A DNA stretch of 37,285 nucleotides from Eubacteriales bacterium (lineage in GTDB: Bacteria; Bacillota; Clostridia; Christensenellales; Aristaeellaceae): positions 1-37,285 of the forward strand of contig JAQVQY010000010.1 of the NCBI GenBank assembly GCA_028701335.1, given 5' to 3'. A model generated the notes under the pieces. That model saw nothing but the letters and a program-made list of their open reading frames with translations. It did no database searches and had not been told where the DNA came from. Positions 18,169-22,374 of the stretch are shown here, in pieces; position 1 is the first letter of the stretch, and every line of letters starts with the position of its first letter. Both the position numbers and the translations under genes were made by a program.

Positions 18169-18201
18169 AAAAACAGCTGGAAGCCCGCAAAAGCCCCCAG
18201 C
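18169..18201 (-). terminator. Intrinsic terminator of the smsCB operon
   Basis: Nine-base-pair stem including two G-U pairs (arms 18193-18201 and 18176-18184 on the minus transcript), eight-base loop, followed by TGTTTTT. It lies just after the smsB stop and before the phosphofructokinase promoter. Confidence 0.7.
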
Positions 18202-18216
18202 CGGTATACATTTCCG

Positions 18217-19152
18217 CTACTTCAGGAAACCCGCCACGATCCTGGCCTCAGCTTCCTCCTCGCTTAAGCCCAGGGTGCGGAGCTTGAGAATCTGCTCGCC
18301 GGCGATCTTCCCAATGGCGGCCTCGTGGATAAGGGCGGCATCGGGGCTCAGCGCGTCCAGCCGGGGGGCGGCGGTGACCACCGCCTCATCGGCCACGATG
18401 GCGTCACAGGCGCTGTGCCCGTGGCAGCGGGCCTCCCCCACGATGCGGCTGACAAAGTGCTGCCGGGAATGGCCTTTGGCCACCGAGCGGCTCACCAGGT
18501 CGCAGCCCGCGTCCTCACCCTCCAGCACCACATGGAAGACGCTTGTGGCCTCCTGGCTGCCGTCGGTCAAAAGGCGCTCCCGGATGATGAGCCTGGACCT
18601 GGCCTTCAGGTTGGCATGGGTCTCCCGCTCGGTAAAGCTGACACCGCCCAGCTGGGAGGTGTCCATGGTGAGGCTGGCGTCCTCCTCCAGCCAGCACTCG
18701 GTGACCGGGTTGATGCGCCGGATGCCTTGTCCCTCCCCGGTGCCCACGTGCTTTTCCTCATACATCACATCGCTCCCCGGGGAGAGATAAAAGCGGTGGA
18801 TGCCGTCATGGCGGCTCTCGCTCTCATCAGATGTATGCACGCCGCAGCCGGCCACAATCTTCACCTGGGCGCCGGCGCCGATGTAGAAATCATTATAGGC
18901 CACATCCCTGATGTCTCCGTGAGTGACCACGGCGGGAATATACACGGTCTCATCCCGTGTGCCAGCGGCCACATGGATCTCAAGCCCAGGCTTGCCGTCG
19001 GGCTTTGACTCGATGCGGATGTTGTCCGTGCTCCTGCGGCCGGCGCAGCCGGAATCCTGGCGGATGTTATAAGCGCCTTCAAACGCGCCCTCATACCCCT
19101 CTACGGTGTTAAGGAGCTCCCGTGCAACGGGGTTTAATTCCTGGATATTCAT
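18217..19152 (-). CDS. smsB: SufB/SufD-family iron-sulfur scaffold, minimal SUF-like (SmsB-like)
   Basis: A 311-residue protein of the SufBD family, much shorter than SufB (~480) or SufD (~420). The C-terminal half keeps the family core: ACDAIVADEAVV, whose Cys aligns with the SufB cluster-site Cys, and DAALIHEAAIGKIAGEQIL, whose HEA holds the Glu equivalent to the SufB cluster ligand; the last part LGLSEEEAEARIVAGFL matches the family's SufC-binding end. The N-terminal helical region is reduced. ATG 19152 overlaps the SmsC stop by one base, after AAGGAAG. With only an ATPase partner and no SufS, SufU or separate SufD nearby, it fits the two-gene SMS system described for anaerobes and archaea. 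It presumably builds Fe-S clusters in the cytoplasm. Confidence 0.85.
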   Translation of the reverse strand: MNIQELNPVARELLNTVEGYEGAFEGAYNIRQDSGCAGRRSTDNIRIESKPDGKPGLEIHVAAGTRDETVYIPAVVTHGDIRDVAYNDFYIGAGAQVKIVAGCGVHTSDESESRHDGIHRFYLSPGSDVMYEEKHVGTGEGQGIRRINPVTECWLEEDASLTMDTSQLGGVSFTERETHANLKARSRLIIRERLLTDGSQEATSVFHVVLEGEDAGCDLVSRSVAKGHSRQHFVSRIVGEARCHGHSACDAIVADEAVVTAAPRLDALSPDAALIHEAAIGKIAGEQILKLRTLGLSEEEAEARIVAGFLK

Positions 19153-19871
19153 CACGCTTCCTTCCTGCCAACCGGGCAAAATCCCGCGATTTCCCCGGCC
19201 AGAAGCCCCGGCAGCACGTCTTCCCTTCTGCCCTGGTCACGCACCTGGCCCCCGGAGAGCACCACGATCTCATCGGCGATGTCGATCAGCCTTTGCTGGT
19301 GGGAGATGATGATAAGCGTCCGCTTCTCGCGCTTCAACCCGTTGAACACATCCACCAGGCCCCTGAAGGACCACATGTCGATCCCGGCCTCCGGCTCGTC
19401 AAAGATGGAGACCTGGGTGCCCCGGGCCAGCACCGAGGCGATCTCCACCCGCTTGATCTCCCCGCCTGACAGCCTCGCGTCCACCTCCCGGTCCACATAG
19501 TCCATTGTGCAGAGGCCCACCTTGCCGGTAATGTCGCACAGGGTGTCAAAGTCCAGCTCCCGGCCGGCCGCCGTCTCCAACAGGTCCCTGACCGTAAAGC
19601 CCTTGAAGCGGACCGGGGTCTGAAAGCCAAAGCTGATGCCAAGCCTGGCCCGCTGGGTCACGTCCAGGTCCGTGATGTCCTGCCCGTCCAGGCGGACGCG
19701 CCCCGCGGAGGGCTTCACCAGTCCGGCGATGAGTTTCGCCAGGGTGGTCTTGCCCCCGCCGTTGGGCCCGGTCACCACGGTGAGCTTGCCCCCTGGGATG
19801 GTGAGGTTTAAGTCCTTGATTATATCGCCGCCCTCCGGCAGCGTCCAAAAGACATTTTCCAGCCTGATCAA
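19152..19871 (-). CDS. smsC: SufC-like ABC ATPase of minimal Fe-S assembly system (SmsC-like)
   Basis: A 239-residue cytoplasmic ABC ATPase of the SufC family, which binds the scaffold and drives its conformational change during Fe-S cluster assembly. Seen: Walker A GPNGGGKTT (35-43), the Q-loop GFQTPVRFKGF typical of SufC (85-92), signature LSGGE (134-138), Walker B with IFDEPEAGID (156-165) and the switch His in IIISHQQR. There is no membrane partner. I chose the TTG at 19871, nine bases after AAAGGAGG; the longer in-frame start at 19973 would read through the promoter and add a low-complexity non-homologous N-terminus. It is translationally coupled to smsB. Confidence 0.88.
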   Translation of the reverse strand: MIRLENVFWTLPEGGDIIKDLNLTIPGGKLTVVTGPNGGGKTTLAKLIAGLVKPSAGRVRLDGQDITDLDVTQRARLGISFGFQTPVRFKGFTVRDLLETAAGRELDFDTLCDITGKVGLCTMDYVDREVDARLSGGEIKRVEIASVLARGTQVSIFDEPEAGIDMWSFRGLVDVFNGLKREKRTLIIISHQQRLIDIADEIVVLSGGQVRDQGRREDVLPGLLAGEIAGFCPVGRKEA

Positions 19872-19910: not shown

Positions 19911-19939
19911 ATTGTACCCCGGATTTGAGGCTGTGTACA
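19911..19939 (-). promoter_or_regulatory. Promoter of smsCB
   Basis: On the minus strand TGTACA (19934-19939), 17-base spacer, TACAAT (19911-19916), about 40 bases before the TTG start. The -35 is weak. Confidence 0.5.
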
Positions 19940-20046: not shown

Positions 20047-20169
20047 ATGCCTATGTTTCCAGTTGTCTGTGCCATACGCCATACAGACAGAAGAAAGGGA
20101 TCAAAAAAGAAAACATCCTTAAAAATGGCGGGAATCTGCTTACTGAATGCCATGGAGCTGCGGGGAATA

Positions 20170-20178
20170 TGGTATAAT
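20170..20178 (+). promoter_or_regulatory. Extended -10 promoter of the ABC exporter genes
   Basis: TGGTATAAT, an extended -10 with a perfect TATAAT at 20173-20178 and no recognisable -35 box; the start codon is 29 bases downstream. Confidence 0.6.
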
Positions 20179-20206
20179 GGACCTGTATGTGGAAAGAGGT
20201 GAGGAT

Positions 20207-21109
20207 ATGCAGCTTGTCGTCAACAACATCACCAAGAGCTTCGGCGAGAAGGAGGTGCTCCACGGCGTCTCATTCACGGTTGAGTCCGGCCGGGCCATGG
20301 GCTTTCTGGGCCGCAACGGCGCCGGCAAGTCCACCACCATCCGCTGCCTGATGGACGTGTTCCACCCTGACAGCGGCAACTTCCTGCTGGACGGCAGCCC
20401 GTTTAAGCCCCGGAGCCTGAAAATCGGCTATCTGCCGGAGGAACGGGGCATGTACCAAAAAAACGGGGTGCTGGCCCAGCTGACCTACTTCGCCATGCTC
20501 AGGGGAGCCTCCATGGCCGACGCCGCCGCGTCCGCCAACCACTGGATTGATTATTTTGGCCTGGGGGAATACAAGAACAAAAAGCTGGAGACCCTCTCCA
20601 AAGGCAACCAGCAAAAGATCCAGATTGCCCAGTCCTTTTTAAACGAACCGAATATCCTGATCCTGGATGAGCCCTTCAGCGGTCTGGACCCGGTGAACGC
20701 CCAAATTTTTCAGAACGCCATCAACGAGTTTGTCAAAGAGGGCAGGCTGGTGATCTTCTCCTCCCACCAGATGAGCTATGTGGAGGAAGTATGCGATGAT
20801 GTGACGCTGATCCACAACGGCGATATCCTTTTATCCGGTGACCTGGACCTGATCAAACTGGAGGAGGGGCGGGACAAGCTGTTTCTCTCTGTCCTTTCGG
20901 GCGACACGGCCTGGGAAAAGGCGCTTTCCAATGCCTTCCCTGCCCTTGGGATCATCCCTGGGGATGACGGCCTGATCCTGGACACCAAAGGCCGGGTAAG
21001 CCAGGGGGACATCATGCGCTGGCTCAATGAGGAGCGCCTTACTGTCAGGCGTTTTGGCCTGTATGAGCCCAGCCTCAACGACATCTTCATCAAGAAGGCA
21101 GGTGACTGA
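20207..21109 (+). CDS. ABC transporter ATP-binding protein (NatA-like exporter)
   Basis: A 300-residue ATPase of the ABC-2 exporter type resembling NatA. Seen: Walker A GRNGAGKST (35-43), signature LSKGNQQKI with Lys in place of the second Gly-position residue as common in this branch, Walker B LILDEPFSGLDP, the switch His in FSSHQM, and a C-terminal regulatory extension of about 85 residues ending SLNDIFIKKAGD, as in NatA-type proteins. ATG at 20207 follows AGAGGTGAGG; an in-frame upstream start at 20147 precedes the promoter -10 and is discarded. It lies two bases before the permease gene and surely works with it. Substrate unknown; Na+ efflux or lipid/antibiotic export are options. Confidence 0.9.
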   Translation: MQLVVNNITKSFGEKEVLHGVSFTVESGRAMGFLGRNGAGKSTTIRCLMDVFHPDSGNFLLDGSPFKPRSLKIGYLPEERGMYQKNGVLAQLTYFAMLRGASMADAAASANHWIDYFGLGEYKNKKLETLSKGNQQKIQIAQSFLNEPNILILDEPFSGLDPVNAQIFQNAINEFVKEGRLVIFSSHQMSYVEEVCDDVTLIHNGDILLSGDLDLIKLEEGRDKLFLSVLSGDTAWEKALSNAFPALGIIPGDDGLILDTKGRVSQGDIMRWLNEERLTVRRFGLYEPSLNDIFIKKAGD

Positions 21110-21111
21110 CA

Positions 21112-22374
21112 ATGCGCGATTTCCTTACCGTTTTCAGGTATGAGCTGAAGACGCAGCTGACCAAGAGGACTGCCATCGTCACCACGGTGATCCTGATGCT
21201 GGTGGTGCTGGTCATCACCAGCCTGCCCCGTTTTATCAGCCTCTTTGATACAGGCGAATTGATAAATGAAACCAGCGGCATCGTGGGGGACGCGGGTTAC
21301 GTGCTGCCAGGCGGCGCCATTGAAAACGCGGGCTACGTGCTGCCCGGCGGCGGGACGGACGCGCTCCTGGCCCCCATCGCGGGAGATGACCCGGCCGTTC
21401 TTTTTGAGGACAGGGACGCCCTGACCCAGGCGCTGAGGGACAAAGACATCCAGGTGGGCTTTGTCATCCAGGAGAACCTGGACTATGAGGCCATTTACCT
21501 GGACCGGTCCCTGCAGGACAGCCTGGACACACAGATGGCAGCCATCCTGACGCAGCTTAAGAAGCAGCAGCTGATTGAGCAGATGGGCATCACGCCAGAA
21601 GGCTTCGCGGCCGTCGAGGCCGCCCAGGCTGTGGGCATCACCACTGTCCTGGGCCGCAACAGCGTTGACAACTACGCCATCAGCTTCATCCTGATGTTTG
21701 TGGTGTACATGATGGTGCTGCTCTACGGCAACTCCGTCTCCACCATCATCGCCCGGGAGAAGGACAGCCGCACCATGGAAATCCTTATCACTTCCACCCG
21801 GCCTTCCAGCCTCATCCTGGGCAAGGTGGCGGCGGCGGGCCTGTCAGCGGTCATCCAGTTTGGCGCCGTTGTCCTGGTAACGGTGGCGGGCTACCAATTC
21901 AACAAGCATCTCTATCCCGAGATGGTCACTGCCATGCTCTCCGGCACCCTCACCACCAGCTATGTTTTAAGCTACGTCTTCTTCTCCTTCTTTGGCTTCA
22001 TCCTCTACCTCTTCCTCTACGCCGCCCTTGGCTCCACCGTCTCCAAGATGGAGGATTTGGGCAGCGCCACCGCCCTGGTGCAGTTCCTGTTCATTTTCGG
22101 CTACCTGATCGCCACCTTCGCCGCCAATATGCCTTCGAGCGCTGTGGCGGTGATTGGCAGCATCGTGCCCTTCACCTCCATCATGGTGATGCCATTAAGG
22201 AGCGCCGTGATGACGGTGCCCTGGGGTGAACTCATCCTGGCGGGGGCGCTGATGGTGCTGTTTGTGATGTTCTTCGCTTTCCTGAGCATCAAGATTTACC
22301 GCTGGGGCAGCCTCAACTACGGCAACAAAACCAAGATCAGCCGCATTGTGAAAGAAGCGCTCCGGAGCCACTGA
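21112..22374 (+). CDS. ABC transporter permease (NatB-like, ABC-2 type)
   Basis: A 420-residue ABC-2 family membrane protein. It opens with a cytoplasmic helix (FLTVFRYELKTQLTKR), one membrane segment (about 23-37), a large extracytoplasmic domain (about 45-180), then five further membrane segments from about 185 to 400. The motif REKDSRTMEILITSTRPSSLILGK (coupling helix region, about 221-244) is diagnostic of the NatB/DrrB-type permeases. The extracytoplasmic domain starts with a tandem duplication of AGYVLPGG. It is directly downstream of the ATPase gene. It is likely an exporter subunit; what it exports is not shown by the sequence. Confidence 0.9.
   Translation: MRDFLTVFRYELKTQLTKRTAIVTTVILMLVVLVITSLPRFISLFDTGELINETSGIVGDAGYVLPGGAIENAGYVLPGGGTDALLAPIAGDDPAVLFEDRDALTQALRDKDIQVGFVIQENLDYEAIYLDRSLQDSLDTQMAAILTQLKKQQLIEQMGITPEGFAAVEAAQAVGITTVLGRNSVDNYAISFILMFVVYMMVLLYGNSVSTIIAREKDSRTMEILITSTRPSSLILGKVAAAGLSAVIQFGAVVLVTVAGYQFNKHLYPEMVTAMLSGTLTTSYVLSYVFFSFFGFILYLFLYAALGSTVSKMEDLGSATALVQFLFIFGYLIATFAANMPSSAVAVIGSIVPFTSIMVMPLRSAVMTVPWGELILAGALMVLFVMFFAFLSIKIYRWGSLNYGNKTKISRIVKEALRSH
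21292..21363 (+). repeat. Tandem 36-base in-frame repeat in the ABC permease gene
   Basis: Two adjacent 36-base units (21292-21327 and 21328-21363). The first 25 bases of the units differ at only two synonymous positions and encode AGYVLPGG twice; the rest of each unit has diverged. It extends the extracytoplasmic loop. Confidence 0.8.

Follow-up and report, generated by a model that had tools for sequence, protein, structure and literature searches.

The window, by which we mean the whole analysed stretch of 37,285 nucleotides, contains two adjacent genes on the minus strand, smsC and smsB. They encode a SufC-like ATPase and a short SufBD scaffold, respectively. The genes and the signals around them are as follows.

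19911..19939, minus strand: promoter-like sequence TGTACA-17-TACAAT, about 40 nt upstream of smsC, a consensus match only
19152..19871, minus strand: smsC-like gene, SufC-family ABC ATPase of 239 aa, TTG start
18217..19152, minus strand: smsB-like gene, short SufBD-core scaffold of 311 aa, ATG start
18174..18203, minus strand: terminator-like 13-pair hairpin with a T-run, directly after smsB

The TTG start codon of smsC is preceded by GGAGG about 9 nt upstream. The TGA stop codon of smsC and the ATG start codon of smsB share one base in the sequence TGATG, which makes translational coupling of the two genes plausible. The preliminary description of this DNA assigned to the pair its own promoter and terminator, and the promoter-like site before smsC and the hairpin after smsB agree with it. 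The scan returned five promoter-like sites where 0.7 were expected. The two terminator-like sites found against 1.4 expected are near chance, so the terminator call rests on its position after smsB. Inverted repeats were also looked for around the operon, with no useful result. Downstream of smsB lies a gene for a diphosphate-dependent phosphofructokinase. As also described before, none of the genes sufS, sufU, sufD and sufE adjoins the pair. On the other side of smsCB, at 20147-22374 of the window, lie the divergently oriented genes for the ATPase and the permease of an ABC exporter; they did not stand out among the common gene clusters of the relatives.

The product of smsB matches the Pfam family SUFBD_core with 57.5 bits (cut-off 27). 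The best NCBIfam match of the smsC product is SufC with 125.5 bits, which is under the cut-off of 212.8, and Walker A, Walker B and signature motifs are present in its sequence. In NCBIfam, both window proteins stay under the cut-offs for SufB, SufD, SufC and SmsB. The window SmsB scores 46.6 bits with the NCBIfam SmsB model NF052511 (cut-off 650); this is an "exception"-type model of 445 positions, and the low score is not decisive. The AlphaFold model of SmsB is of high confidence (pLDDT 93.6), and its fold matches structures of SmsB and SufB; the best PDB matches are 4dn7 from M. mazei and 9h78, the SMS complex of M. jannaschii. The C-terminal tail of SmsC is predicted with low confidence. 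The assignment of smsC–smsB as a two-gene SUF-like scaffold pair is well supported: the Pfam match, the fold and SufC as the best match bear out the earlier reading of a SufC-like ATPase and one short SufBD scaffold at these positions.

Scanning public genomes yielded hundreds of matches. The 80 loci retained belong to Oscillospiraceae and further Clostridia, to Eubacteriaceae-type bacteria and to several Spirochaetes. Neglectibacter timonensis (locus L042) has a short-type pair with an SmsB of 63% identity. The order smsC–smsB was retained in all 106 homologous loci compared, and on account of this conservation chance open reading frames were dropped as an explanation. Besides the pair itself, no conserved neighbour was found in the 80 loci; the remaining shared clusters consisted of antisense frames or had a scattered distribution. 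When 300 genomes of the phylum were surveyed, three arrangements emerged. One is full SUF with SufB and SufD; in the other two there is a single scaffold protein, which is either long (about 375-437 aa) or, as in the window, short (about 305-340 aa). The long-type loci L122-L129 and L137 combine a scaffold of about 410 residues with a full C-Xn-C-X-X-C motif in SmsC. One genome (G308, loci L134 and L140) carries both a full SUF operon and a short SMS pair.

The residues of SmsB and SmsC that bear on cluster assembly are encoded at the following positions.

18844..18846, minus strand: codon of SmsB C103, equivalent to the SufB sulfur acceptor C254
18403..18426, minus strand: codons of SmsB C243 to D250 (C243, H246, C249, D250), C249 being equivalent to SufB C405
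18322..18327, minus strand: codons of SmsB H276-E277, equivalent to SufB H433-E434
19155..19274, minus strand: C-terminal region of SmsC with no C218 equivalent, no CxxC and a single cysteine, C232 (19176-19178)

In E. coli, SufB C254 takes sulfur from SufE, and the assembly site seems to consist of SufB C405 and E434 and of SufD H360 (PMC5571166). A tunnel in SufB links C254 with this site, and mutation of H265 or Q285 impairs or abolishes function (PMC5571166). The residues H115 and H135 of the window SmsB align to these two tunnel residues. The alignment of C249, H276 and E277 with E. coli SufB C405, H433 and E434 confirms the earlier observation that the scaffold keeps the cysteine and the HEA motif of SufB. 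All 115 short sequences share eight residues, namely C103, H115, H119, H135, H246, C249, H276 and E277, and H106 (109/115) and C243 (108/115) are nearly invariant. Histidines at positions 106 and 119 were not seen in the long and SufB groups, and C243 is likewise characteristic of the short branch.

In the SmsB tree the short sequences lie on one side of a branch with 100/99 support, and SufB (85/96) and the long type (91/98) are separate from them. The SmsB of M. jannaschii joins the short branch at 92/92; its own branch is long, and the program warns of such joins. M. jannaschii is the only archaeon sampled in the trees, and the SufD sequences in the SmsB tree have long branches. In the SmsC tree, the long type groups with SufC (96/97), the short sequences form a branch of their own (80/79), and M. 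jannaschii SmsC has no firm position. Both trees thus agree on a separate short branch and exclude SufB, SufD and SufC, which indicates that the pair is not a remnant of SUF. The window pair belongs to a bacterial branch apart from SufB, SufD, SufC and the long-scaffold SMS, with a weak affinity to Methanocaldococcus SmsB. The scores under the curated SufB, SufD, SufC and SmsB cut-offs would suit an unrelated SufBD paralogue pair or a full-SUF remnant with no role in Fe-S metabolism. This explanation is very improbable in view of the invariant catalytic residues, the constant pairing of the genes, the trees and the lack of a second SufBD gene in the genome, and the remnant was dropped as a candidate on the trees and the invariant residues. 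A complete suf operon elsewhere, combined with a pair that falls into an unrelated SufBD paralogue group, is not what was found: there is one SufBD match in the 89.5%-complete genome, and the trees place it as described. A split of bacterial SMS into two groups was not found in the literature searched, from which Garcia et al. 2022, who reportedly defined MIS and SMS, was left out.

Two papers from 2025 conclude that the minimal SUF of methanogens holds its cluster on SmsC (PMC12192291, PMC12584684), and one of them expects this location for SmsC proteins generally. The M. jannaschii cluster is bound by SmsC C218, C239 and C242 (PMC12192291), and the equivalent three SufC cysteines bind it in Methanothermococcus (PMC12584684). 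The C-Xn-C-X-X-C motif has been described as largely absent in bacterial homologues (PMC12584684). In the short branch, no sequence has a cysteine at the C218 position (0/106), CxxC occurs in 16 of 106 tails, and 70 of 106 SmsC proteins have a single tail cysteine. The window SmsC retains one of the three methanogen ligands. As a positive control, the full motif was recovered in M. jannaschii and in 9/9 sampled long-type bacterial SmsC proteins; the same scan gave no tail cysteine in SufC. Early-branching short members have two to four tail cysteines in other spacings. On the tree, 14 changes occur between a single tail cysteine and two or more, and the tail beyond C232 therefore looks weakly constrained. 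The term "SmsC/SmsB type" used in the preliminary description holds for the composition of the pair, which is that of SMS; it does not extend to the characterised methanogen subtype, as the SmsC ligands are reduced to one. Judging from the sequences, the pair is not a member of this biochemically defined subtype, yet it may still work like SMS.

The last possibility corresponds to an ordinary SMS, in which C232 of the flexible SmsC tail, together with other SmsC cysteines (C121, C112) or with small ligands, holds the cluster, and the part of SmsB is limited to stimulating the ATPase, as in methanogens. C232 aligns with the M. jannaschii ligand C242 and is a cysteine in 110 of 115 sequences. 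C121, a branch-specific residue of the helical domain, is kept in 111/115 and C112 in 102/115. A conserved SmsC site has been predicted despite the diversity of the tails (PMC12192291), and in Methanothermococcus SufB2C2, with its cluster on SufC, the conserved SufB cysteines and histidines are dispensable (PMC12584684). We regard this reading as possible, if somewhat unlikely: the tail counts given above argue against it, and C112 and C121 are residues of the helical subdomain and not of the tail site.

The window assembly comprises 2.09 Mb in 166 contigs and is 89.5% complete, so that absent genes could lie in the missing 10%. Its only SufBD gene is the smsB of the window. Searching for isc, nif and full suf genes gave no full suf operon in this 89.5%-complete assembly and an Rrf2-nifS-nifU operon of the ISC/MIS type on contig 35. 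The NifS (569 bits) and NifU_clost (214.5 bits) matches of this operon are both over the cut-off, and its nifU is the only NifU/IscU gene of the genome. An A-type carrier was sought in the 89.5%-complete genome and not found; the single Mrp-family match is weak and partial. The pair, previously called stand-alone, is indeed alone as an operon; it is not the sole Fe-S system, since Rrf2-nifS-nifU is also encoded. With a NifU scaffold also encoded, the organism may not use the pair as a main route.

It is conceivable that NifS-NifU is the main route and that SmsCB is a dispensable accessory system, an ATPase complex for Fe-S repair, storage or regulation. The presence of Rrf2-nifS-nifU in the window genome suits this explanation, as does the deletion of both sufCB copies in Methanosarcina acetivorans, which caused no defect in growth or Fe-S content (PMC10500019). 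Of 80 genomes searched, including that of the window, 36 contain the short pair and five contain full SUF, and about half of the sampled relatives have no SufBD gene at all. We nevertheless consider an accessory role improbable. The SufB catalytic positions are all invariant, and in five relatives that are each at least 90% complete (G031, G048, G051, G055 and G058) the short pair is the only recognisable scaffold. In these five genomes no SUF was found, NifU/IscU gave only weak partial matches, and NifS-type desulfurases are encoded. A real scaffold role of the short pair is likely, because these relatives have the pair and a NifS-type desulfurase with neither SUF nor a full-length NifU/IscU. 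In G048 (L143, 1414-3028) an Rrf2-nifS pair occurs without nifU, and in G051 (L153, 964-2676) Rrf2 and nifS form one continuous reading frame, also without nifU. Three other genomes of 90-99% completeness (G025, G036 and G044) have neither a detectable SufBD nor a detectable full-length NifU/IscU; absence calls may therefore partly reflect incompleteness or an unknown system.

We propose that the pair is an ATP-driven Fe-S cluster scaffold, and the solved structure of the analogous M. jannaschii complex leads us to expect the composition SmsC2B2. What we infer in this model is where the cluster sits, where its sulfur comes from, the stoichiometry and the physiological role. Sulfur would reach SmsB C103 as free sulfide or as persulfide supplied by a NifS-type desulfurase whose gene lies elsewhere. 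It would then pass a beta-helix channel at the positions held by the invariant histidines. The cluster would form at the SmsB–SmsB interface on C249, H276 and E277 with the help of C243 and H246, and the SmsC ATPase would open and close this interface. The chances that the short branch assembles its cluster in this SufB-like manner on an SmsB dimer are about even. The residues of SufB are kept in SmsB and the methanogen cluster site is missing from SmsC, which speaks for it. Against it stand the dispensable SufB residues of Methanothermococcus SufB2C2, the nearest tested case (PMC12584684), and the remaining C232 and C121, which could form another SmsC site. The gains of SmsB cysteines (C36, C75 and C243) also do not track the losses of SmsC tail cysteines; correlated evolution was not supported. 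Assembly on SmsB is possibly NifS-fed.

The complete proposal is that a widespread bacterial branch has dropped the methanogen-type SmsC site and builds clusters on a SufB-like homodimer, which receives its sulfur from a NifS-type desulfurase encoded elsewhere. We put it forward tentatively and think it unlikely to hold in full. If true, it would add a further arrangement to ISC, NIF, SUF, MIS and SMS, with a MIS desulfurase joined to an SMS scaffold, and the NifS-fed SmsB route would be the sole Fe-S route in some anaerobes. The short branch spans many anaerobic Bacillota and some Spirochaetes. Since it lacks the SmsC site and keeps the SufB site, it allows a direct test of cluster location in a two-protein system. 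The relatives with the pair and NifS, in which neither NifU nor SUF was found, are the organisms where this test can be decisive. The short branch also bears on how SUF could have arisen.

Among the known systems, the SMS of M. jannaschii (SmsC2B2, PDB 9h78 and 9h7y) and the SufB2C2 of Methanothermococcus likewise consist of two genes with C before B. The methanogen systems also have a short SufBD scaffold of about 310-320 aa that keeps the SufB-type cysteine, histidine and glutamate, and the M. jannaschii protein has the same fold as the window SmsB model (TM 0.79/0.85). The window pair differs in lacking SmsC C218 and C239, and hence the C-Xn-C-X-X-C motif, and in having the branch-specific SmsB residues H106, H119 and C243 and SmsC C121. 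It also coexists with a NifS cysteine desulfurase, whereas M. jannaschii has none (PMC12192291). The long-scaffold SMS of the same phylum is likewise a C–B pair without SufD and has the same catalytic SufB residues. However, its scaffold is about 100 residues longer and forms a separate branch, and its SmsC keeps the full cysteine motif and groups with SufC; in its mechanism, this type may resemble the methanogen system more closely than the short branch does. With SUF (SufBC2D with SufS and SufE or SufU) the window pair shares the equivalents of SufB C254, C405, H433 and E434 and the tunnel positions. It lacks SufD, SufS, SufE and SufU, its scaffold has 311 aa instead of about 470-500 aa, and it belongs to a different branch. 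The MIS/ISC system (NifS-NifU) encoded elsewhere in the window genome has the same overall function and uses a scaffold of an unrelated family.
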